A stretch of DNA of 64,000 nt from assembly GCF_032393985.1 (NCBI RefSeq), contig NZ_CP135918.1, forward strand, positions 5,395,724 to 5,459,723, given 5' to 3'. Origin of the DNA: Fischerella sp. JS2 (GTDB taxonomy: Bacteria > Cyanobacteriota > Cyanobacteriia > Cyanobacteriales > Nostocaceae). Under the pieces are notes generated by a model that ran no database searches, was not told the origin of the DNA, and worked only from the letters and a program-made list of their open reading frames with translations. Numbering within the stretch: position 1 is the first letter of the stretch; each line of letters starts with the position of its first letter. Both the position numbers and the translations under genes were made by a program. Of the stretch, positions 40,912-52,316 are shown piece by piece.

Positions 40912-41679
40912 ATGAAGTTTTTACAATTTAGATTGTATCACAAAGGAAGTTTAAAGTTAGCCTTTGTCAGTCTCAACTGCTTATTATTTTTCTCTCCTTT
41001 TGCAAAAATACAAGCACAAATTATAAAGGAATCTACATCAGTAAATAACTTCAATTATTCCTTTATCCAACTAACAAAAAAACAAGTTTGTCCATCTGCA
41101 CAATTACTACCGAAGCGAATTTTTGAGACAGCTAAATATTATGTTTATATTTGCAGGGGAGACGAAAAAAACTCTCTAGGTTATTACGTACAAATTTATA
41201 AAAATAGTAGTAGTAAAATTATTATTCCCGTCAGTAATCAAGTAGGTGAAGCTTACTTTGCTAAAAATACTGGGGTAATATATACTGTTACACCCTATGA
41301 ATTAGTAGTAACTAAACTCACTAAACGTAGTAGTGTTGTTTTAAGAGAAAAAGTTAATAGTGCGATCGCAGCTGATGGTCAATCTTTAGTGAAGGGTTGT
41401 CCTGAAGGTAATACTTCCTTTGTAGAAGCTGCAACCAAAAACTATATTGTGTATATTTGTGGTAGAGAAACGCCAGATACTTATATAGCTGTGACTAAGA
41501 ATGGAACTAATATAATTACTCTGCCATTACAGCTAAACTACAACTCCTCTGCGAAAGCAGAAGATAGTGAATATGTTGCGATTAAAGGTAAAACTCGTTA
41601 TCTTCTCAACCGGAAAATGCTTAAGGTTTCTCGTGAGGGACGCAATTTAGTTAAGGAAAAAATTTTATATTGGTATTAA
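40912..41679 (+). CDS. secreted protein with internal duplication, 255 aa
   Basis: Exported protein I do not recognise. A signal peptide (about 1-37, LAFVSLNCLLFFSPFAKIQAQ) is followed by two similar halves: CPSAQLLPKRIFETAKYYVY with ICRG, and CPEGNTSFVEAATKNYIVY with ICGR, each about 75 residues, each with a Cys pair and a beta-rich end. The body is AT-rich and Lys/Asn-rich. It converges with the CHAT gene, and their stop codons overlap. Whether it works with that protein is unknown. Confidence 0.72.
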   Translation: MKFLQFRLYHKGSLKLAFVSLNCLLFFSPFAKIQAQIIKESTSVNNFNYSFIQLTKKQVCPSAQLLPKRIFETAKYYVYICRGDEKNSLGYYVQIYKNSSSKIIIPVSNQVGEAYFAKNTGVIYTVTPYELVVTKLTKRSSVVLREKVNSAIAADGQSLVKGCPEGNTSFVEAATKNYIVYICGRETPDTYIAVTKNGTNIITLPLQLNYNSSAKAEDSEYVAIKGKTRYLLNRKMLKVSREGRNLVKEKILYWY

Positions 41680-44600
41680 GGAGATAAAGGAAAAAATTCA
41701 TATTGATTTGCAAACTTATGACTTGGTTTAATTTTCACCAAAATAATATCATTCTTGTTTTGAATATGGCGATCGCCTGATTGTAAAAACTGGATTTTAC
41801 CAGTCGCGCCAATGGCAGAAAATTTGGGATTTCGCAAGACTTTTTGCAGTCCATCACGAGTTTTACTTTGCTGTAAACCATTAACTATGGCTACAGTTGC
41901 ATCATAACTTGTAGCAGAACGCCAAGTTACTAAACTTCTCCAAAGTTTGCGGGAGTTTTTAGCAAATTCACTTTCAAAATTACTCCTAGCTTCCCAAGGC
42001 ACAGCTAACACTAAATTATTAATATCAGCTTTTCCTTGTTGGAGAGTTTGTAAGGTATATAGTGAAGTACTGGCAAATAATGTGAGTCTGCCTTGATTGG
42101 CTTTAGCTAAATCTAAAGCTTTACTAATTCTATCAATATGGGGAGCTAAAAATAATCCTTCAGCACCATTACTAATTGCATCTGCAATAATTTTAGGAGG
42201 ATCAAAATCTGGTGCAGAAAAATCACACCTAATATTCACAATATTTCCACCATCGGCAATGGTAGCAGAAGCAAATTCATCGCGAAAAGATTGATTATCT
42301 ATAGCTTTTTCATCTACACAAATAGCCAAGTTTTTTGTCCCCGCAACATTGATGGCATAGTGAGAAACAGAATCAGCAAGAAAACGGAGATTGGGAGCAG
42401 TGCGAAATATATAGGAACCACATCCCGACAATTTTAACGAAAAGCTAGTAGGAGAAATATTGACTAATTTTCCATCTTGGTAAATTCCACATGCTTTGAC
42501 AGAAGCATCAGAGGCATTATGAGCAATAACTGCTAAAATTTTCTTGTGGTTGACAAAATAGTTAGCAATTTTTCTAGCAATATCAGGATTGTTATCGTCA
42601 TTTGCTATTTCTATCTGTAATAAATATCCTTGAATGCCACCTTTATTATTAACTTCATCTTGAGCTTGAGCCACACCTTGCAGTATTTCTTTAGCAACAT
42701 TGGGATTACTACCCAGAGGGACACTGACAGCAATTTTTAAAACTTTGCCATGACGAGCAGCAAGGGCATTTTGTAAGTATATGTGTGTTTCAGGATCATT
42801 GGGCATATTTTGCAGAGATTTTTGAAAATATGCGATCGCTACCTCATATTTCTCTGCTGCAAAAGCTTGTATACCTGCTTTTTTCTCGTTACTAGGTTGT
42901 GTATCTTGAGCTAAAATTTTATCTCCCAAGCTAATACGATTAAAAACAGAGTCTTTGAGTACAAAACTATAGTTACTAGGATTTTTGGGATCGGGTTTAA
43001 CTTCCACTAACACCGCCGTACCGATGCGATCGCCCCAAGGTGAAAATTGAATAGTCCCCGTAGCGCCTTCTAAAACAAAACTACCGGATAAAGCTTGTTG
43101 GATGCCTTCTCTGGTGTTATCTTTTTGGATTAAAGCTTGAGCGATCGCATTTGTAGCATCGTAGGCATTTGCTGTGCGCCAAGTGATAGAATTTGGATCA
43201 CTCCAAAGTTTATAGGCATCTTTAACAAATTTTTTATTAGCAGAAGCGTCGGTGTGCCAAGAAACAGCCATCACTAAACCGTTAACAGCTTTACCTGCTT
43301 TGAGAGTTTTTTGAGTTTGCATACTGTGACTGCCAAAGAGCATTAATTTGCCTTTATTAGCTTTAGCAACTTCTATAGCTTTATCAATTCTGTCAACATG
43401 GGGATTGAGAAATATACTATTTGCTCGCACTTTGATTGCACGTTCAATGGCGACTTCTGGCTGAAAATTCTTGGCTGACAAATCACAGTGAATATCAATT
43501 AACTGAATATCATTTTTGCTCAGTGCTGAAGCTATTGCTGGTTCATAAGACTGATCTTTTGCTTGAGAATCACGACAGATAGCAATGCGAGTTTTGCCTT
43601 CTTTTTTTGCGTACTCAGCTAAAGTTTCGGCAATCACATCATTTCTGATGACGGTTCTGTAGATATAACTCCCAGCAGACCGATTTTCGGGATTAGTTAC
43701 CAATGGAGAAGTACTAGTTGGTGAAATCATCACCAATTTTCCGGCTTGATAAATATTAGCAGCAGGGACACTAGCATCACTACTGTTATGTCCGATGACT
43801 GCCAAAATATTTTTTTGATCTTGGACAAATCTGTTGGCAACCCTTTGAGCGATCGCAGGATTATTATCATCATTGACTATTTCAACTTTTAGTAACTGAC
43901 TATTAATACCATCTCTACGGTTAATTTCATCTTGGGCTTGTGCTACACCCCGCAAAATTTCCTGGGCAACATCAGGATTTGTACCAATAGGAACCACAAC
44001 TGCGATCGTCAATTTTTCTTGATTGCCAATCTTGGCATTATTCAAATATATTAATGATTCTGGATCATTAGGTTTTTGTTGTAAAGAAATCTTGAATTTA
44101 CTAACTGCTTGATTATAATTTTTCCATGATAATGCTTGCACTCCTTGCTTTTTATATTCAGTAGAAACTGTTTTTACTAAAATTTTATCGCCATCACTAA
44201 ACCGATTACGGAAATTAATTTCATCAATCCCACGCCACAAAACTGCACCAACACACCCCAGTGAAACTGTGACAATAGCTGTGCGAAAAGCCTTTTGTTT
44301 CCAGTTCAAAATTCGGGGATATTTTAGTTCCGTTGCGGCTGGATTCTGAAAAATTACAGGTAGCCAAGAAGCACAAGGATAATCTCTTTCCCACTCCTCA
44401 TATAGGCGTTCCCGTGCTTGGTTTACAGACGCATATAAAGATTCGCCACTAGTAAATGCAGTCAGAAAATATTTTAAAAACTCTTGGGCAATAATATCAG
44501 GTACAGGTTCCCGCATGACAATTGTGTAAGGAATGCGTAAATCAGCTAAATTGCGTGCTAATCCCAATCCATCACAGGAGTTAAAAATTGCCAATTTTAA

Positions 44601-45401
44601 TCCCTGTCTGACTGCATGTCTGAGAGAGTAACGTAAATTTCGTAATGATAAATAACTCTCATCAGCATTAATTTGAATTTCTCCCCAACTGTCACCTTCT
44701 TTACTGATACTATGTCCAGCAAAAAATAAAATATCCCAAGGTTGAGTTCTCAAATTGTCAATCAGTTGACGGCGTGTAGGTTCGATTAATGCCTTAACTT
44801 TTGCACCTGGTAAGTTTTTGAGAAAGTATAAATCTTGATTGAGATCAATTCCCTGGTTACTACCTAAAATTGCCAAAATTTTGACTGGTACTTTCAGTTG
44901 CTTTGTTGATGGTTCGTATTCTGAACCAATGACTATTTCTGCTTGGGGATGGCTAGTAGAAAAAAAACCCCACAAATGCCAAGGTAATCTCCGCAATAAT
45001 GAATCTGAAGTCTGTAAAATAAAGCGAATATCTTCAGAATTACCAATTTGTCTTGATAATTGTCGCTCTATTTCTAAAACAGGCGCTTGATTTAGCCAGG
45101 TGTTGAAACTATCTTGAAATGCTTTAGCAGCTTGATTACAAGCATCTTTACTAGAAAAGTTTGTAATCTGATTTTTAGGAATAATAATCAACCAATTTGC
45201 TGGCAATTTTTCATAAATAGATTGCCATGTAGTGTACGTTGTCGGAACTTCTGGTGCAGGTGGTAATCTACCAGAAATCTCAGCAATATGACGCTTACCA
45301 GCCTCACCAATTCTCACTTTGACAGGAAATCCCCTCTCAAAAGAACCCTCTCCTATTTCAAAAATAACTAGTTTAACCTGCTTAACCACATTTACCACCA
45401 C
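41676..45401 (-). CDS. CHAT protease fused to tandem TPR/periplasmic binding domains
   Basis: Protein of 1241 aa. An N-terminal CHAT (caspase-like) domain has the catalytic pair H230 (FFAGHS) and C276 (FNSCDG). One membrane helix (about 372-390) follows. Then come two near copies, about 420 residues each, of a short TPR (GVQALSWKNYNQAVSKF; GIQAFAAEKYEVAIAYF) plus a type I periplasmic binding domain of the LivJ/Peripla_BP_6 kind (463-803 and 888-1226, each opening AVVVPIGTNP or AVSVPLGSNP). Proposed topology: protease in the cytosol, ligand-binding copies outside. Upstream on the same strand are a DUF1822 gene and a sigma-like factor. The ligand and the protease target are unknown. Confidence 0.88.
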   Translation of the reverse strand: MVVNVVKQVKLVIFEIGEGSFERGFPVKVRIGEAGKRHIAEISGRLPPAPEVPTTYTTWQSIYEKLPANWLIIIPKNQITNFSSKDACNQAAKAFQDSFNTWLNQAPVLEIERQLSRQIGNSEDIRFILQTSDSLLRRLPWHLWGFFSTSHPQAEIVIGSEYEPSTKQLKVPVKILAILGSNQGIDLNQDLYFLKNLPGAKVKALIEPTRRQLIDNLRTQPWDILFFAGHSISKEGDSWGEIQINADESYLSLRNLRYSLRHAVRQGLKLAIFNSCDGLGLARNLADLRIPYTIVMREPVPDIIAQEFLKYFLTAFTSGESLYASVNQARERLYEEWERDYPCASWLPVIFQNPAATELKYPRILNWKQKAFRTAIVTVSLGCVGAVLWRGIDEINFRNRFSDGDKILVKTVSTEYKKQGVQALSWKNYNQAVSKFKISLQQKPNDPESLIYLNNAKIGNQEKLTIAVVVPIGTNPDVAQEILRGVAQAQDEINRRDGINSQLLKVEIVNDDNNPAIAQRVANRFVQDQKNILAVIGHNSSDASVPAANIYQAGKLVMISPTSTSPLVTNPENRSAGSYIYRTVIRNDVIAETLAEYAKKEGKTRIAICRDSQAKDQSYEPAIASALSKNDIQLIDIHCDLSAKNFQPEVAIERAIKVRANSIFLNPHVDRIDKAIEVAKANKGKLMLFGSHSMQTQKTLKAGKAVNGLVMAVSWHTDASANKKFVKDAYKLWSDPNSITWRTANAYDATNAIAQALIQKDNTREGIQQALSGSFVLEGATGTIQFSPWGDRIGTAVLVEVKPDPKNPSNYSFVLKDSVFNRISLGDKILAQDTQPSNEKKAGIQAFAAEKYEVAIAYFQKSLQNMPNDPETHIYLQNALAARHGKVLKIAVSVPLGSNPNVAKEILQGVAQAQDEVNNKGGIQGYLLQIEIANDDNNPDIARKIANYFVNHKKILAVIAHNASDASVKACGIYQDGKLVNISPTSFSLKLSGCGSYIFRTAPNLRFLADSVSHYAINVAGTKNLAICVDEKAIDNQSFRDEFASATIADGGNIVNIRCDFSAPDFDPPKIIADAISNGAEGLFLAPHIDRISKALDLAKANQGRLTLFASTSLYTLQTLQQGKADINNLVLAVPWEARSNFESEFAKNSRKLWRSLVTWRSATSYDATVAIVNGLQQSKTRDGLQKVLRNPKFSAIGATGKIQFLQSGDRHIQNKNDIILVKIKPSHKFANQYEFFPLSP

Positions 45402-45664
45402 TTGATAACTTAATGTTTAACATCAATTCATGGCTAGAAATCACCACTCAATAGCTAACGAATAATCCATCGGTGTGCATCTGGGTTCGATTAAAAAATG
45501 AATCTGTTTTTCCTTAAATCAGTAAATGGCGATCGCATCAATGAAGGTGTGAAAAACGAACACCGATTAACACCGATTAACACCGATGAAAATCTATCTG
45601 TGTCTATCTGTGTGATCTGTGTTTGATAAAAAATGATTTCTATACAAGTTCCAATAATTCATAT
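45402..45664. repeat. ACACCGAT repeat between DUF1822 and CHAT genes
   Basis: Tandem ACACCGATTA units (45550-45590) and TATCTGTGTC units (45595-45620), with an inverted partner near 45465-45490 (CATCGGTGTGCATCTGGG). Same family as 8165-8440 and 48876-49025. It may separate the CHAT gene from its upstream neighbours or act as an attenuator. Confidence 0.65.
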
Positions 45665-46822
45665 CTAGATGATAAAATTTTCTGTAATCATTGCATCATT
45701 TAAACCAACCCTAACTCGAAATCTCTCACCAAATTCCGCACAAAATTTTAATTGAATATAATCATCTTCTTCTCTAGCTTGAACTTCTAAAAATGCTTGT
45801 CCATCCTCATATAATCCTGCTAATTGTAAACCTAATGGTAAATAAGCATTATTCATAGGATAAACCCGTAATAGCACAGCAACTGTTTGATCTGGTTTTG
45901 GTAAAACTGCTACCATCAAAGCTACAGCGCTACCATCTAACTGCATTCCCAAATCCATAATGCGTCTAGCAGTCACAGCAGGGTGGTTCGGTTGAAGAGT
46001 CCACAAAATTTCCGCAAGAGTCCAACGTGTTTCTTCATCTTCAGTAGTTTTGATTAAATGAACTAAAATATCCAGAAGTTCTGAGGAAATGTTACTATTA
46101 TTATTTACCTCTATTTTTTCACAACGATTATTAAATTTTTTGGACAATAATTTGGATGGTAAACCTTTTTGCCAACTATGATTGGGGTAAAATTGCTCAA
46201 TAATTTGCCAAACAATATCTTGTGATTCTAATTTCAATCCTCTGACACGTTTAATAGAGCGAAAAGCAAATTGAGGTTTTCTTTTACGAGTAAATTCTTC
46301 AACTGTTTGCCACTCAGTTGTGTAAATATTTTCTAGCCATGCTCTTAAAGAAATTAGATGCGATCGCTCAATTAATTCATCCAATGAATGTAACTGGTTA
46401 ATATCAATTTCTGCGGCGGTAACATGAGGCAAAAATCCCCAGATTTTACCTTCCTTACAAGTTTGATTAATTTCGACAACCACATAACCAATGCGATCAT
46501 CCCAAACTTCTGGCGGGATATAACAAACGCGATCGCCTGTGCGAATTGCTCGACATTCTAAGTGTCCTATCCCAGTTAAGACTAAATCGGCGACATCATC
46601 AATTAATCTCCGGTAAGGATGCCAACTATAGCTAGATTCTAAATCTGTAGGAATATCTAGCATTTGCAAATAGGTATTAACTACCTGGACAGCTAAAGTA
46701 TTTAAATATACTTGCCTTGCTCTTGTTTGTGTTGGTTGTTCTCTGACAAATTTAAGAGCATTTTCTCGGAATTCTTCAGAAATAGGGATAGATATAGTTT
46801 GACGTTCAGTTAAGTAATTCAT
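45665..46822 (-). CDS. DUF1822 family protein
   Basis: Cyanobacterial protein of 385 aa, unknown function. The N-terminal part has ISIPISEEFRENALKFV and LNTLAVQVVNTYLQMLDIPTDLE, then SYSWHPYRR; the family is typically found beside sigma-70-like genes and CHAT-domain genes. The C-terminal third is beta-rich (VAVLLRVYPM, VRVGLNDA). I start at 46822 (MNYLTERQ), an ATG; an in-frame TTG at 46858 would overlap the sigma-like gene by 8 bp. Its position between the sigma-like factor and the CHAT receptor suggests a coupling role, which is inference. Confidence 0.86.
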   Translation of the reverse strand: MNYLTERQTISIPISEEFRENALKFVREQPTQTRARQVYLNTLAVQVVNTYLQMLDIPTDLESSYSWHPYRRLIDDVADLVLTGIGHLECRAIRTGDRVCYIPPEVWDDRIGYVVVEINQTCKEGKIWGFLPHVTAAEIDINQLHSLDELIERSHLISLRAWLENIYTTEWQTVEEFTRKRKPQFAFRSIKRVRGLKLESQDIVWQIIEQFYPNHSWQKGLPSKLLSKKFNNRCEKIEVNNNSNISSELLDILVHLIKTTEDEETRWTLAEILWTLQPNHPAVTARRIMDLGMQLDGSAVALMVAVLPKPDQTVAVLLRVYPMNNAYLPLGLQLAGLYEDGQAFLEVQAREEDDYIQLKFCAEFGERFRVRVGLNDAMITENFII

Positions 46823-46850
46823 AGTTGTAGATTCAAATTTCAAAAAACTA

Positions 46851-47498
46851 TTAATCAAGATAGCCTTGGGATTTACAAAATTCTTCTAGCAAAGGTAGGC
46901 ATTTTTTTTGATAGAAATTGCTGAGAGTCGGGATAGGAACACCAAAATCTTGGGATAAAACTTTCCAAGCAACTTCCAAAAGAAAACGGCGTTCAATCAT
47001 AACTTGACAATTAACATCCGGGCGATCGCTAATATGAATACGCCGTAATCTACTGGTTTCATTTGTAAGCCATTCCCGAATTTCTTTGAGCATAGGTGAT
47101 GGTTCTGGTGGTGCGGGAATAATATCTAAAGGATCTATTGCTTCACCATTTTCTCCTGTGAAGGGATTAATTCTTCTGTTTCTCTCTTGTTTATTTCTCT
47201 GACTAATTTCTTTAATACGATAATACAAGTAACCATTTAACCAGCTAATCACACAACCTTGTTTGGGATCATAAGGATTCCTAGCAGTAGTTGCTTCACA
47301 GAGATTTTGGCAAAAATATATCCAGGTTTTCTGAAAAGCTTCCTCTACATCAGGTACACCTGTACATCGCAAAAGTCTACCCGATTTTTGAATCAGACAA
47401 ATAATTTGATTCAGTTTCCTTTTGCGTTCTAAACTACCTCTGGGATGCTGACAAGCTTCTTGAACAAGTTGGAGGATTTGCGCGTTGAATTCATCCAT
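46851..47498 (-). CDS. sigma-70-like factor of the DUF1822/CHAT group
   Basis: Protein of 215 aa annotated in relatives as a sigma-70 family factor. The region 2-like part (about 68-122) has VEEAFQKTWIYFCQN and CVISWLNGYLYYRIKEISQR; the C-terminal part (about 172-215) PIPTLSNFYQKKCLPLLEEF resembles a reduced region 4, but a canonical -35 helix-turn-helix is not obvious. It would be soluble, and could either direct RNA polymerase or have become a signalling adaptor. It is the first gene of the minus-strand group leading to DUF1822 and CHAT. Confidence 0.75.
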   Translation of the reverse strand: MDEFNAQILQLVQEACQHPRGSLERKRKLNQIICLIQKSGRLLRCTGVPDVEEAFQKTWIYFCQNLCEATTARNPYDPKQGCVISWLNGYLYYRIKEISQRNKQERNRRINPFTGENGEAIDPLDIIPAPPEPSPMLKEIREWLTNETSRLRRIHISDRPDVNCQVMIERRFLLEVAWKVLSQDFGVPIPTLSNFYQKKCLPLLEEFCKSQGYLD

Positions 47499-47554: not shown

Positions 47555-48832
47555 CTAAGGGCGTTTATCCAGATTTGATTTCACTTCCGGAATCAGAATT
47601 TTCCCGTCACCCTTGAATTCATTAATCGCCTTACTAACATCGATACCAGTAGTCTGGCGTAACTGTTCTAAGAAAGATGCGAATTTTGGCACATTACCAC
47701 CATTAGCAGCATCAATAACAGTCAAATTTTCTACCTCCACTTGCGGAACTCCCGCAGCCATCATTTTCAACAATGGTTCCAACTTCTGGAACAGGAATAT
47801 TTCTCGCGCCGCCGCACCAGCATTTTGCCAAGATTCAGCCAAACGCTGTGTACCTGCGGCTTGGGCTTTACCATCTTCGATAATTCTGGCTGCATCGCCC
47901 TTGGCTTTGGCGATCGCTTGCTGACATGCGGCTGCGGCTGGCGCAATCACATCAGCTTGCAACTGCTTTTCCACCTGTTTGATACGTTCAGTTTGTACCG
48001 CCACCTCTGCTTGTACCCGCGCAATTTCTGCATTGACTACCGCTTCCACTTCCGCCACCATCGCCGTGCGCTTTGTCAGTGCATCTCTAACTCTGCGTTC
48101 CGCTTCCGCCTTCGCCACCTCCAAATCGCGTGCAATTTGCCTTAACTTAGTAATGCGATCGTTTTCCGAACTTTTAATAATCGCCTCCGCCTTAGCTTGC
48201 GCTTCCGCTATGCGCGCATCTCGTAATAACTCCGCCTGCTGCTTACGTCCAATTGAATCTAAATAACGTACCTCATCAGAAATATTTTTAATTTGCAAAT
48301 TATCCAAAACCAATCCCAACTTTTCTAAATCATCCTCCGCCTCTTCCAACAAAGTTTTCGCAAAAGCAATCTTATCTTCATTCACTTGTTCCGGTGTGAG
48401 ATTCGCCAATACCCCCCGCAAATTTCCTTCCAATGTTTCCTTGGCTAACTGTTCAATATCTTTGCGAGTTTTACCCAACAAGCGTTCGATCGCATTGTAA
48501 ATAATTGGTTCTTCGCCAGCAATTTTAATATTCGCCACCCCTTCTACCGTCAAAGGAATACCACCTTTAGAAAAGGCATTTACCACCCGCAATTCAATAA
48601 TCATATTCGTTAAATCCATGCGGAAAGTCTTTTCAATCAGGGGGATTTGAATTCCACTACCGCCTTTTACCAAACGGTATCCTACCGAATTGCTATCACC
48701 TGTAGAAGTGCGACTACCAGCAAAAATCAACACCTCACTTGGCTGACAAATATAGTACAAATTGCGAATCACCCACCAACCAGCAGCAGTACCAGTACCA
48801 AAAATTCCGAGTAGTAAAGCTATGATTTCCAT
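47555..48832 (-). CDS. flotillin-like SPFH domain protein
   Basis: SPFH/band 7 protein of 425 aa. An N-terminal membrane helix (1-25, IIALLLGIFGTGTAAGWWVI) and YICQPSEVLIFAGSR are followed by the SPFH domain (to about 190, VNAFSKGGIPLTVEGVANIKI) and a long Ala/Glu-rich coiled coil (RDARIAEAQAKAEAI), as in flotillin, which forms membrane microdomain scaffolds. I start at 48832 because GAGGA lies eight bases upstream; the frame upstream of that is repeat DNA. Paralogous to the next gene and probably co-transcribed despite a 196-bp repeat gap. Confidence 0.9.
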   Translation of the reverse strand: MEIIALLLGIFGTGTAAGWWVIRNLYYICQPSEVLIFAGSRTSTGDSNSVGYRLVKGGSGIQIPLIEKTFRMDLTNMIIELRVVNAFSKGGIPLTVEGVANIKIAGEEPIIYNAIERLLGKTRKDIEQLAKETLEGNLRGVLANLTPEQVNEDKIAFAKTLLEEAEDDLEKLGLVLDNLQIKNISDEVRYLDSIGRKQQAELLRDARIAEAQAKAEAIIKSSENDRITKLRQIARDLEVAKAEAERRVRDALTKRTAMVAEVEAVVNAEIARVQAEVAVQTERIKQVEKQLQADVIAPAAAACQQAIAKAKGDAARIIEDGKAQAAGTQRLAESWQNAGAAAREIFLFQKLEPLLKMMAAGVPQVEVENLTVIDAANGGNVPKFASFLEQLRQTTGIDVSKAINEFKGDGKILIPEVKSNLDKRP

Positions 48833-48875
48833 GATATTTTTCCTCGAATAAGTAAACGGCGATGGGAGGAATGAA

Positions 48876-49025
48876 ATTGGAAAAAGCGAACACAGATGCA
48901 CACCGATACACACCGATGATTGCAGGGGAATTGTTCGTTGGTGGTTGAGGGTTATGAGTACTAAATTCAGATTCAGAGGGCAAAATCTATCTGTGTGCAT
49001 CGGTGTGCATCGGTGTTCGATTAAA
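48876..49025. repeat. inverted ACACCGATGCACAC repeat pair
   Basis: GAACACAGATGCACACCGAT at 48889-48908 and its reverse complement-like partner GTGTGCATCGGTGTTCG ending near 49020 enclose about 70 bp. A transcript through both flotillin genes would fold into a long stem here. Same family as 8165-8440 and 45455-45645. Confidence 0.7.
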
Positions 49026-49028
49026 AAA

Positions 49029-50363
49029 TTAATTATTTTGCTGATTTAAAGTCCCTGTCACATCAATACCCAAAGTCCGATTCACATTCTCTAAATACTG
49101 CAACACAATCTCTGGATAAACATTTACCAAACTAGCCAAAGATTTACCATCACCGTTGTCAATCACATTCACTTTATCGATTTGAATTCGCTGGGGAATT
49201 TGCACAGCTTCTTGTAATACCATTTCGATTTGTTGAATTAAGAACAACTTGCCAGCCTCAGTTCCTGTTTGCTGCCAAACCTGGGAAAGAATATCGTTGA
49301 CTAAGGCTGCTGCTTTCGCATTTTCTTCCAAAGCGGCGGCTTCACCTCTGGCATGAAGTTCTTGGGCTTGAGATTGGGCGAGGGCTGGTAAAACTGTGTC
49401 TGCTTCCAAACGCAGACGTTCTAATTCAGCCCGTAGTGCTTGCAGTGCTTGTTCGGCTTTGGCTTTCTTCTCTTGGGCTGCGGCTTTGGTAATTTCTTCT
49501 TCGGAACGGGCTTTCTGTTCTAACTTGGCTTTGATTTTACGCAGTTCGTTTTCTTTTTCCAGAACAATGATTCTGTCTTGGGTTTTGGCAACTTGGGCGT
49601 GTTCCTCACATTGGGCTTCCACTTGTTCGGCTTGGGCGATCGCATCTGATTCGGCAATTTCTGCATCTCTGAGAATTAAGGCTATTTGCTTGCGTCCCAA
49701 GGATTTGAGATAATCGACATCATCAGACACACTTTGAATTTTCAAAGTATCGAGTTGTAATCCCAGTTTCGCTAAATCACGACTGACATCAGAGGCGATA
49801 CGTTCAGCAAAACTTAGTCTATCTTCGTTGAGTTCTTCGGGTGTGAGGGTAGCCACAACACCCCGTAAATATCCTTCTAAAGTTTCGCGAGAAACACGCG
49901 CCAATTCTGAGCGATCGCGATCTAAAAAACGTTCGATCGCATTACCCACCACTGCCGCATCAGTGGAAATTTTCACGTTAGCGATCGCTTGAATATTTAA
50001 AGGCGTTCCTCCCTTGGCGTAGGCATTCCGCACCTCTACCCGCACAGGCATTGTCGTTACATCCATGCGTTTGACAGTTTCCACAATCGGAATCCGGATC
50101 GCACGTCCACCTACCAATACCCGATAACCTACTTGTTGTCCATCCTGATTTCGCCACTTACGCCCCGAAAGAATCAAAACTTCATTCGGCTTGCAAATGC
50201 ACAAAAACGACTTTAAAAACCAGACAATAACAACAGCGCCAAAAATAGAAGCAGCAATCGGAAGGCTAGTAAATAGTAATCCTTCCATCCCATTATCTTT
50301 ATTTGTTGTGACAGGCCGATCAGCTGGAATTTGCCCGACTTGTACAGTTGCAATATTTTTCAT
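49029..50363 (-). CDS. flotillin-like SPFH domain protein
   Basis: Second SPFH protein, 444 aa, about one third identical in wording to the first. The polar N-terminal 28 residues precede a membrane helix (about 30-55, LLFTSLPIAASIFGAVVIVWFL); the SPFH part has CICKPNEVLILSGRKW and VRNAYAKGGTPLNIQA, the coiled coil ALQALRAELERLRLEAD. A second in-frame start (MEGLLF, residue 26) is possible and would put the helix at the N-terminus as in flotillins. Adjacent NfeD-like and flotillin partners match known flotillin/NfeD operons. Confidence 0.9.
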   Translation of the reverse strand: MKNIATVQVGQIPADRPVTTNKDNGMEGLLFTSLPIAASIFGAVVIVWFLKSFLCICKPNEVLILSGRKWRNQDGQQVGYRVLVGGRAIRIPIVETVKRMDVTTMPVRVEVRNAYAKGGTPLNIQAIANVKISTDAAVVGNAIERFLDRDRSELARVSRETLEGYLRGVVATLTPEELNEDRLSFAERIASDVSRDLAKLGLQLDTLKIQSVSDDVDYLKSLGRKQIALILRDAEIAESDAIAQAEQVEAQCEEHAQVAKTQDRIIVLEKENELRKIKAKLEQKARSEEEITKAAAQEKKAKAEQALQALRAELERLRLEADTVLPALAQSQAQELHARGEAAALEENAKAAALVNDILSQVWQQTGTEAGKLFLIQQIEMVLQEAVQIPQRIQIDKVNVIDNGDGKSLASLVNVYPEIVLQYLENVNRTLGIDVTGTLNQQNN

Positions 50364-50506
50364 AACTCAGTTAGTAGTTAGTAGTTAGTAGTTAGTGGTT
50401 AGTAGTTAGTGGTTAGTAGTTGGTAGTTAATAGCTATTCTCCCCACACTCCTCACACTCCCCATCTCCCCATCTCCCCATCTCCCCACTGCCCCTAATCC
50501 CCACCC
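50364..50506. repeat. TAGTTAG tandem repeat and C-rich run
   Basis: 50369-50432 is an imperfect heptamer repeat (TAGTTAG/TGGTTAG); 50445-50510 is a CTCCCCATCTCCCC-type run. The last part resembles the repeat pieces inside the chorismate-binding gene. No gene. Confidence 0.65.
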
Positions 50507-50827
50507 TCACACCCCCACCACCCACACCTTATTACCCTTCATCCTCACAACAACAACGCGATCGCCTTGGTGAAATTGTTGAGTTTCATCGGTGAGGGCG
50601 ACAAAATCTACTAAGGAACCTTTGAGATTGACACGGATTTTTCCGGGGCTTTTGCGGTTGAGAGGAATTTCCACAGTTCCGTAACAACCGACGATATTAT
50701 CCGTGCGTACAAGGCTATCGATTGCGAGGCGTTGGCGTTGCAAAAAAATTAGTCCAACTATGAACACACCAGCCAAAATTCCTAAGGCGATTGCAATACC
50801 AGTAATTATCAGGATGGAATTTTTCAT
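50507..50827 (-). CDS. NfeD-like membrane OB-fold protein
   Basis: Small protein of 106 aa: an N-terminal membrane helix (about 3-30, ILIITGIAIALGILAGVFIVGLI truncated here as IAIALGILAGVFIVGLI), then a short OB-fold domain (VGCYGTVEIPLNRKSPG and FHQGDRVVVVRMKGNKVWV) like the C-terminal domain of NfeD, the usual partner of flotillin. I start at 50827; TAATATG shows one base between the upstream stop and this ATG, so the two are coupled. The frame further upstream is only the out-of-frame reading of the neighbour's Gly/Cys repeat. Confidence 0.82.
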   Translation of the reverse strand: MKNSILIITGIAIALGILAGVFIVGLIFLQRQRLAIDSLVRTDNIVGCYGTVEIPLNRKSPGKIRVNLKGSLVDFVALTDETQQFHQGDRVVVVRMKGNKVWVVGV

Positions 50828-50828
50828 A

Positions 50829-52316
50829 TTAACCACCACAGCCGCCACAACCACCACCACAACCACCACCACAGCCACCACCGCAACCGCCACCACAACC
50901 ACTACCAACACTACTGCTAACATCACCACTACTAGTACTTGGTGGTACGAGGGCTTGTTTTAAATCTGCTAAAGAACCTACTAAAACTGCACTACCAAAC
51001 AAAGCAACACCAAATGCAATGTCAGATGAGCTAGGGGAGTAAGATGAGCGATAGTAATTGAGGGTGCGATCGCCAAATCGAGTACGGTGTGGCTTAGGCA
51101 ATAGCAAGAACGCAAGAATAGCCGTCATAATGCACATTCCAATTAAGAAACCTACAGGTTTCCCTCGGGAAAGCCCCACAAAGATTTTGCTGATTCCCAA
51201 CAAAAGTACTGCTAAGACGGGTATTGCAGTCGCAATTTGAATTATCTTCGCTTGGCGATCGCTAACCAGCAAACCTTGGTTTTCCAAGTTTCGCCTAATT
51301 GAATTTGTTGCAGATATGGCTCTTTTGCGGATAGTTTCAATAGGAGCATAATTCGTACCACTGACACTTTCCTCAGTAATTGCTTCTGCGATTGATTTCT
51401 CTAAAGGATGACTATTGGCACAAAGAGTATTTTCCAACTGCAAAGTACGACTTGTGGCCGAAACTGTGAGATATTTGTCTTGCACAAGTTTAGCGATCGC
51501 AGCATCTACTGCCCTATAGGCACCACTAGCCAAATATGCTAATTCATAACCATTGAGAGAGCCAGATTCACTACGTGGATTATTAGCAGATATACTTAAA
51601 AACCAACGTAAACTTCTAGCTATGACAAAAGTAATAATTACCGTCAAAAAGTAAAACCAGAGGAAATCAGGGCCGCTTAAATTCAGGGGATTGGTAATAG
51701 AAGCTGCTAACAAAGGCTTATTATTTGCTACTAATAATCCCAAAGAAAATAGTGGTAGCCAAATTAACGATAAATTTCCTGTCGGGCGCAGTGAAAAACG
51801 AGCTATATTTATCTTTGGCAACTTCACTAATTTTTTCGGTAAAACCCAGTTTTCCTGAGTATTCACCCGCACAAAATGCGTATCACGATTAAAACGAATA
51901 TGCGGCAATGGCCAAATATCTAGCGGTGGAGTTTGCCCAAAAAAACGCTCGTAACTTGCCAAAGTTTTGATATACAAATCTTGGAATTTACCAAGTTCCA
52001 CACTACCACCCTGACTAGGATTATGATGCAGTGGTGTTTGTAAAACTTTTGCACAAAATTCTTCCCAATAAGAATGTGTATAACTTAAGTGCAGATGCCA
52101 AACTTGATCGACTTGTTCTGATGGAACCACCGTATGTCCAGCAACTACCGCTAAAAAAGCAAACTTTTTATACTCCTCAATTGCCCGTTTTGTATATTCG
52201 GCACTCCAACCATTTTCTTTAGCTAGCTTTCTGCTGAAAGGATAAACAGCATTATTTTCATCTAAAGAAAACTCTTGAATTCGTGTGTATAATTTTGCTT
52301 GTTCAATGTTCATCAT
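50829..52316 (-). CDS. TIGR04222 membrane protein with Gly/Cys tail
   Basis: Protein of 495 aa. The N-terminal about 115 residues form a soluble domain with VPSEQVDQVWHLHLSYTHSY, like the glycine-rich-protein (DUF1399/GRDP) module; three to four membrane helices follow (about 180-195, 222-240, 360-400), with a cytosolic part containing PIETIRKRAISATNSIR. The C-terminus is a run of (GGGC)n, about 30 residues, typical of the TIGR04222 family. Likely first gene of an operon with the NfeD-like and flotillin proteins. Function unknown; the Cys/Gly tail could bind metal or be modified. Confidence 0.85.
   Translation of the reverse strand: MMNIEQAKLYTRIQEFSLDENNAVYPFSRKLAKENGWSAEYTKRAIEEYKKFAFLAVVAGHTVVPSEQVDQVWHLHLSYTHSYWEEFCAKVLQTPLHHNPSQGGSVELGKFQDLYIKTLASYERFFGQTPPLDIWPLPHIRFNRDTHFVRVNTQENWVLPKKLVKLPKINIARFSLRPTGNLSLIWLPLFSLGLLVANNKPLLAASITNPLNLSGPDFLWFYFLTVIITFVIARSLRWFLSISANNPRSESGSLNGYELAYLASGAYRAVDAAIAKLVQDKYLTVSATSRTLQLENTLCANSHPLEKSIAEAITEESVSGTNYAPIETIRKRAISATNSIRRNLENQGLLVSDRQAKIIQIATAIPVLAVLLLGISKIFVGLSRGKPVGFLIGMCIMTAILAFLLLPKPHRTRFGDRTLNYYRSSYSPSSSDIAFGVALFGSAVLVGSLADLKQALVPPSTSSGDVSSSVGSGCGGGCGGGCGGGCGGGCGGCGG

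Follow-up and report, generated by a model that had tools for sequence, protein, structure and literature searches.

A candidate EACC2-CHAT receptor protease with two periplasmic-binding sensor units, encoded behind sigma-like and DUF1822 genes in Fischerella sp. JS2

RESULTS

Three consecutive genes encode a sigma-like protein, a DUF1822 protein, and a putative receptor protease

We analysed a 64,000-nucleotide stretch of Fischerella sp. JS2 (contig NZ_CP135918.1, positions 5,395,724 to 5,459,723; hereafter, the window), which is part of a 7.02-Mb cyanobacterial contig. Three consecutive genes on its minus strand encode, in order, a 215-amino-acid protein resembling sigma-70/extracytoplasmic function (ECF) sigma factors, a DUF1822 protein, and a 1241-amino-acid putative receptor protease. 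The gene for the sigma-like protein, a short form of its family, lies at 46851-47498 and was assigned from its open reading frame (ORF) and from fold matches of an AlphaFold2 (AF2) model. The DUF1822 gene, whose product is a candidate anti-sigma factor or partner, occupies 45665-46822 and matches PF08852 with an E value of 5.3e-91. Its longest ORF extends to 46858, and the alignment of relatives suggests the ATG at 46822 as the probable start codon, giving a protein of 385 amino acids, so that the DUF1822 ORF would not overlap with the sigma gene. The receptor gene is found at 41676-45401, and its start may lie a few codons downstream of the annotated GTG.

The receptor ORF and its Pfam matches delineate a putative protease part followed by a membrane helix and two sensor units. 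An EACC2-like N-terminal region covers approximately residues 10-165 (44907-45374; limits approximate; assigned by alignment with CHASE2-type receptors and by the definition in Kaur et al. 2021), and a CHAT match covers residues 198-346 (44364-44810; Pfam E value of 4.2e-13). A Kyte-Doolittle scan places a transmembrane helix at residues 371-389 (44235-44291), behind which lie sensor unit 1 (residues 401-815; 42957-44201; Pfam and LivJ alignment) and sensor unit 2 (residues 823-1238; 41688-42935; Pfam), each composed of a TPR-like spacer and a type I periplasmic-binding protein (PBP) domain. Peripla_BP_6 matched two stretches with a whole-protein E value of 1.8e-57, the best of them at residues 465-802. 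These results confirm the gene set proposed in an earlier, sequence-only reading of the window, and of the domain plan in that reading the CHAT domain, the single helix, and both PBP stretches stood, whereas TPRs were found only below the Pfam cut-off (TPR_2, E value of 0.0059), for which reason we call these parts TPR-like. The predicted catalytic pair, H230 (44712-44714) and C276 (44574-44576), whose residues that reading named for the CHAT domain, was identical in all 53 receptor rows that cover both positions (window included; 54 rows in all, with sequence-identical rows dropped from this and other conservation counts).

The N-terminal region and the CHAT domain of the receptor align with those of CHASE2-type members with a mean column identity of 54% over 14 rows, 4 of which are CHASE2 type. 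We found PBP, CHASE2, and other C-termini on one EACC2-CHAT module, a pattern of a constant N-terminal region and caspase-like domain with a variable C-terminal part. The libraries searched for the receptor reported no EACC2 model, and the EACC2 name rests on architecture. By that architecture, the receptor is predicted to be of the EACC2-CHAT kind rather than of the gRAMP/TPR-CHAT kind to which it had first been likened. A profile of the CHAT part matched no CHAT protease among PDB chains at E values up to 1, and neither Csx29 nor Csx30 appeared among the PDB profile matches in that range, which is a weak test given that the CHAT profile matched no CHAT protease.

The gene order recurs in cyanobacteria, and sigma and DUF1822 genes also pair without the receptor

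With the whole receptor as query, 132 of 386 cyanobacterial genomes were matched at E values up to 1e-10, CHAT and PBP matches being mixed in this count. A scan of named genomes used the best 80 matches and gave 79 loci (labelled L###), 39 of which, not being a census, encode EACC2-CHAT-PBP fusions and come from several cyanobacterial families. Six of the 39 PBP loci are from Microcystis, and the set therefore does not represent 39 independent events. Among the matches listed, 8 ORFs in these loci encode receptors with two sensor units, and 39 encode single-unit receptors. The genes were arranged as sigma, DUF1822, and receptor in 31 of the 36 PBP loci for which 2.8 kb or more of upstream sequence was available; this count required both partner genes to be on the same strand, with no more than 9 kb to DUF1822 and 10 kb to sigma. 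The trio, on whose conservation the sequence-only reading had staked its proposal beforehand, is thus a recurring arrangement. DUF1822 was at most 0.7 kb from the receptor in 29 of the 31 (in L062 by way of a split CHAT ORF), 0.9 kb away in L083, and 3.6 kb away in L069. Among PBP loci with less than 2.8 kb upstream, L070 contained both genes and L057 and L088 neither. Five loci contained several receptors behind one pair (L067, two; L071, four; L076, two; L079, two; L081, three), which fits the idea of several inputs to one switch. For CHASE2-type receptors, DUF1822 was within 0.7 kb in 30 of the 34 with 3 kb of upstream sequence.

We also examined 40 DUF1822 loci that were hand-picked, and hence non-random, from a best-match list (20 from its upper part and 20 from further down, with at least one locus repeated, as L159 is L091). 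A sigma-like gene was upstream in 38 of the 40 (19/20 upper and 19/20 lower, one a fragment; the sigma model for the second 20 was rebuilt with hits from the first 20), and an EACC2-CHAT gene was nearby in 21 (4/20 upper and 17/20 lower). In L170, sigma is represented by a 113-amino-acid fragment 0.5 kb upstream, and CHAT by a fragmentary match where the contig ends; the CHAT gene of L171 is 1.5 kb downstream, with two other genes in between. From these gene neighbourhoods, the sigma-DUF1822 pair looks like the stable core of the system. Because the pair recurs without EACC2-CHAT, DUF1822 may act as the keeper of the sigma factor, and of the two partners that had been suggested as targets of the protease, DUF1822 appears likelier to be cut than the sigma-like protein.

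The sensors are predicted to lie outside the cell

The helix at residues 371-389 is the only one that the simple Kyte-Doolittle scan found in the receptor, and the same scan found no helix in the sigma-like or DUF1822 protein. The helix exceeded the cut-off of 1.6 in 49 of 54 receptors and scored only about 1 in L072, L073, and L074, and lysine and arginine were richer on the inner side in 37 of the 54. CHASE2, which is named as possibly extracellular in the main text of Kaur et al. 2021 (PMC8195603), occupies the position of the sensor after the same EACC2-CHAT module. Furthermore, of 22 TPR-PBP proteins that stand alone, 21 had an N-terminal helix and the remaining one was cut by the locus end. 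The cysteines equivalent to C609 and C639 occurred together in 67 of 90 PBP units, were jointly missing from 18, and occurred singly in 5. These observations together place the PBP sensors very probably outside the cell and support the earlier proposal of a transmembrane caspase-like protease-receptor.

The two sensor units belong to old, separate clades

In a tree of the 90 PBP units, 8 of 9 second units formed one clade (100/99), the second unit of L059 falling outside it, and 8 of 9 first units formed another clade (100/98) together with the units of five single-unit receptors, which come from Anabaena catenula and four genomes of the family to which the window belongs. By this tree, the two units are old, separate clades, and they carry different pocket residues. 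The separation suggests that the tandem form is older than the families carrying it, and the five single-unit receptors probably lost unit 2. A recent duplication of the sensor was rejected on the basis of the tree, the second unit of L059 notwithstanding. The closest rows found were from Fischerella muscicola PCC 7414, with 94% and 93% identity in the two units, in a relatives scan that may omit records very near the window; this similarity would probably place the host in Hapalosiphonaceae.

The units have the type I PBP fold by their Peripla_BP_6 matches, align with LivJ, and are related to LivJ/LivK-type binding proteins. We compared the LivJ residues Ser79, Thr102, and Glu226, which we take to be its amino-acid contacts. 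The Ser79 equivalent was kept in 89 of 90 units. At the Thr102 position, all nine second units had Phe, whereas the nine first units had Ser, Thr, Asn, or Glu; in the window, unit 1 has Thr and unit 2 has Phe. The Glu226 equivalent was Glu in only 2 of 90. The units do not carry the full LivJ contact set, which bears on the ligand and not on the fold. Since the units are old and non-equivalent, two ligands are favoured over a simple internal duplicate, the sequence-only reading having offered either two ligands or internal dimerisation for the doubled sensor.

In the receptor arrays of L071, L079, and L081, the CHAT parts formed one group of nine (96/72) and the PBP parts fell at three separate places in the tree, as expected if sensors had been swapped on a constant protease. 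The arrays in L071 (3394-15114) and L081 (1792-12369) consist of 4 and 3 EACC2-CHAT-PBP receptors behind one DUF1822 gene. We also observed a receptor in two ORFs in L062 (10001-13752; the same as L038, Calothrix sp. NIES-3974), which is one ORF in an uncultured Calothrix relative (L058), and a split or decayed gene in L165 (6421-9375), where CHAT and TPR-PBP are in two adjacent same-frame ORFs behind sigma and DUF1822 genes. Outside this receptor type, four proteins that we scanned carry TPR-PBP fused behind a helix to a caspase (C14), AAA_35, or protein kinase domain (L042, 4039-6546; L043, 1556-4309; L046, 5895-8321; L053, 11292-13739), which suggests that TPR-PBP is a portable cyanobacterial sensor.

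The short-form sigma-like protein appears diverged, and the DUF1822 model has no close fold match among those listed

At E values up to 1, no Pfam or NCBIfam model matched the sigma-like protein of the window. Within the short-form family, TIGR02937 matched 11 of 22 proteins (best E value of 2.1e-5; the window protein not among them) and Sigma70_r2 matched 4 of 22 in that range. The AF2 model of the window protein (mean predicted local distance difference test [pLDDT], 89.3; predicted TM-score [pTM], 0.49) matched mostly sigma factors among the 50 Foldseek matches listed, including sigmaE (E value of 0.015), AlgU (0.017), SigL (0.026), SigK (0.17), and CnrH (0.73), with E values of at least 0.0088 and TM-scores of at most 0.41; weak overall superposition could be expected of two flexibly joined domains. 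Long-form relatives, also at E values up to 1, matched TIGR02937 in 17 of 17 proteins (best E value of 1.1e-31) and Sigma70_r4 in 15 of 17, and their PDB profile matches included sigma factors down to an E value of 5.9e-11. The short-form profile matched only designed proteins in the PDB (E value of at least 0.046), and a comparison of the short- and long-form profiles gave no significant match (probability 3.7). By these models, the long form is a sigma-70 protein and the short form, as in the window, appears more diverged.

Of 386 cyanobacterial genomes, 227 had a DUF1822 match above cut-off, compared with 0 of 14 control genomes; any match was found in 240 genomes, many small genomes of one family having a single weaker match. 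The DUF1822 model (pLDDT, 83.4; pTM, 0.55) begins with an alpha/beta part at its N-terminus, continues through a low-confidence stretch and helices, and ends in a set of strands. A known fold for DUF1822 was sought and rejected, as the best match had an E value of 1.2e-3 (AgI/II V domain), the next were mostly local beta-sandwich parts, none reached an E value of 0.001 or lower, and TM-scores by query were at most 0.18 among the 50 matches listed. Arg200 (46259-46261; numbering of the 397-amino-acid ORF) lies in an AFR motif within the low-confidence stretch, and 55 of the 78 DUF1822 proteins aligned have Arg there. Mean pLDDT falls to 57 over residues 191-200 and is 67 over residues 201-210, and positions 202-262 are each at most 37% conserved, partly because many rows do not have that part. 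We regard the Arg200/AFR stretch only as a candidate site for cleavage or docking. In L164 (3917-4573) and L171 (7494-8135), the main pair is followed by another, short DUF1822-like gene, which is preceded by a gene for an uncharacterised protein of 230 and 237 amino acids, respectively.

Related genes in the source genome and neighbours of the trio

The source genome contains 26 CHAT matches, 23 of them above cut-off. It also has three DUF1822 genes and a further DUF1822 match that falls below cut-off. All three DUF1822 genes adjoin an EACC2-CHAT gene. The other two EACC2-CHAT receptors (L001 and L002) have CHASE2 in place of PBP; upstream of the receptor in L001 is a long sigma-like gene; in L002, another CHAT gene lies upstream, and no sigma match was found within the 10 kb taken. 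In a further region, G000:C1:748500-763500 (L003), lie several CHAT matches, of which some contain internal stops, together with the DUF1822 match below cut-off; the EACC2-CHAT and DUF1822 queries gave no match there at an E value of 1e-5.

Directly upstream of the sigma gene, the window encodes two SPFH/Band 7 proteins and a small protein that is NfeD-like by eye (47555-50929, minus strand). All three genes were matched upstream of sigma in L055, L056, and L060, and they may share a transcript in this lineage. A general linkage of the trio to SPFH/NfeD genes was rejected as lineage-local, the three genes having been matched only in those loci; the upstream sequence of L068 resembles the same SPFH/NfeD gene end, though it was unreported by the linkage search. 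Further upstream (50829-52316, minus strand) is a 495-amino-acid ORF with hydrophobic stretches by eye and a glycine/cysteine-rich GGCGG tail.

DISCUSSION

The general gene set described here is already in print. The main text of Kaur et al. 2021 (PMC8195603) describes EACC2-caspase proteins whose C-termini vary and include small-molecule-binding domains, encoded next to ECF sigma and DUF1822 genes, and names DUF1822 once, in the EACC2 context. The words "periplasmic" and "PBP" are absent from that main text, and its figures or source data may hold a PBP example. Those systems and the trio in the window are alike in a constant N-terminal module with a caspase-like domain, a variable C-terminus, and the ECF sigma and DUF1822 genes; they differ in that activation via an autopeptidase is proposed there, whereas here DUF1822 is the favoured substrate. 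Our additions are the double-sensor receptor, the recurring sigma-DUF1822 pair, and the likeness of the whole to Csx29-Csx30-CASP-sigma and CalpL-CalpT-CalpS. Among literature combining at least three of DUF1822, CHAT, ECF sigma, CHASE2, and cyanobacteria, we found only Kaur et al. 2021, and we recognised no description of this receptor among the listed matches, as judged from their listings, that join CHAT or caspase with periplasmic or substrate-binding.

Several described systems are counterparts to parts of this arrangement. Csx29, the type III-E TPR-CHAT protein, cuts Csx30, an inhibitor of CASP-sigma, and so relieves it (PMC10028731). That cascade also consists of a CHAT protease, a sigma inhibitor, and an ECF sigma factor, but unlike the system in the window it is RNA-activated. 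CalpL cuts the anti-sigma factor CalpT, which is thought to lead to CalpS release (PMC11417357), and is likewise a trio of sensor-protease, anti-sigma, and ECF sigma, although CalpL is a Lon protease with a SAVED sensor of cyclic oligoadenylate. HetF of Anabaena is a cyanobacterial CHAT-transmembrane-TPR protein (PMC8406250) that is reported to cut a regulator, the inhibitor PatU3 (PMC12288457); its published domain plan has no PBP, and we liken it to the receptor by domain plan alone. Caspase-like domains have also been joined to the same sensor family, Peripla_BP_6 being described in 8 of 473 cyanobacterial orthocaspases (PMC8283722), but the comparable protein in our set is that of L042, which has Peptidase_C14 and not EACC2-CHAT.

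We propose that the receptor is a one-pass EACC2-CHAT protease through which a ligand outside the cell switches CHAT on, leading to cutting of DUF1822 and release of the sigma factor. Inside the cell would be the EACC2-like region and CHAT, a cysteine peptidase carrying the His-Cys pair, with two different type I PBP sensors outside. A solute, presumably a small molecule and perhaps amino-acid-like for unit 1, would bind and close a PBP unit, and closure would be relayed via the TPR-like spacer and the helix to switch CHAT on. Active CHAT would then cut DUF1822, the normal holder of the sigma-like factor, and the released sigma factor would start a gene programme. The comparative analyses support the predicted anatomy, topology, catalytic pair, gene order, and sigma-DUF1822 pair, whereas we infer the roles of DUF1822 as anti-sigma factor and CHAT substrate and the gating by ligand. 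This route is favoured by its Csx29, CalpL, and HetF counterparts, and taken as a whole we regard it as quite possible while falling somewhat short of probable.

Several observations weigh against this proposal. Kaur et al. 2021 (PMC8195603) propose autopeptidase activation instead. The sigma-like protein of the window was unmatched by any family model and its fold matches are weak, and inspection by eye, with no statistical search, of the sequences preceding 11 sigma genes revealed no promoter motif in common. Five of the 36 PBP loci (L059, L065, L075, L078, and L080) do not have the upstream pair, that of L075 being downstream on the other strand, and sigma was within 3.5 kb in only 7 of the 34 CHASE2-type receptors (11 within 10 kb). 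No known anti-sigma factor was among the DUF1822 matches, the PDB profile hits being unrelated (E value of at least 0.44), and Arg200 is replaced in 23 of 78 rows. Finally, 17 of 54 receptors have no lysine/arginine excess inside.

In the autopeptidase model, which Kaur et al. 2021 (PMC8195603) have put forward for such systems, a stimulus leads the constant caspase domain to cut its own protein, DUF1822 is an adaptor and not a substrate, and sigma is a late step. The retention of DUF1822 beside CHASE2-type receptors (30/34) even where no sigma gene is close (7/34) suggests that it may serve the receptor, but the presence of sigma upstream in 38 of 40 picked DUF1822 loci, with EACC2-CHAT near 21, makes sigma look like the first partner of DUF1822, and we consider this model unlikely. 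A different reading is that of a broad defence or cell-death protease, in which triggered CHAT cuts many proteins and the sigma and DUF1822 genes only set expression of the locus. CHAT and caspase-like proteins are known in such roles, and the source genome is rich in CHAT matches. In contrast, sensors of the LivJ type point to the sensing of solutes, one sigma-DUF1822 pair is shared by several receptors in five loci, and a PADLOC scan of the three proteins at E values up to 0.1 matched neither the receptor nor the sigma-like protein and matched DUF1822 only to DrmA (E value of 0.014), a result on which we rejected membership of the trio in a defence system. We regard the broad protease as distinctly unlikely.

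It is also conceivable that the CHAT part binds DUF1822 or sigma at the membrane under ligand control without cutting. Membrane sequestration of sigma regulators is common, and CHAT activity here is a prediction, but binding alone would not demand that H230 and C276 be the same in every covering row, and such a relay seems to us quite improbable. The relationship of the PBP units to LivJ/LivK-type binding proteins might instead reflect a chance fusion of ordinary amino-acid uptake proteins to CHAT. That fusion recurs in 39 of the 79 loci listed and in several cyanobacterial families, however, the Glu226 equivalent is nearly always replaced (Glu in 2/90), and TPR-PBP is also found on kinase, caspase, and AAA_35 domains (four proteins), as sensors are, all of which makes a chance fusion highly improbable.

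Returning to the proposed release of sigma by CHAT cutting of DUF1822, we offer a wider and more tentative suggestion, about which we are rather doubtful: DUF1822 may be a new class of anti-sigma factor, and the sigma-DUF1822 pair may be a widespread cyanobacterial switch to which various receptor-proteases are attached. In Fischerella sp. JS2, two outside molecules would then control caspase-like cutting of an anti-sigma factor, making the receptor a membrane counterpart of Craspase and CalpL. If this is true, one caspase-like membrane receptor would couple transcription to a molecule outside the cell, in a genome that contains 26 CHAT matches, DUF1822 would gain a role, and the CRISPR-associated trios of protease, anti-sigma, and sigma would be tied to a wider, non-CRISPR design.

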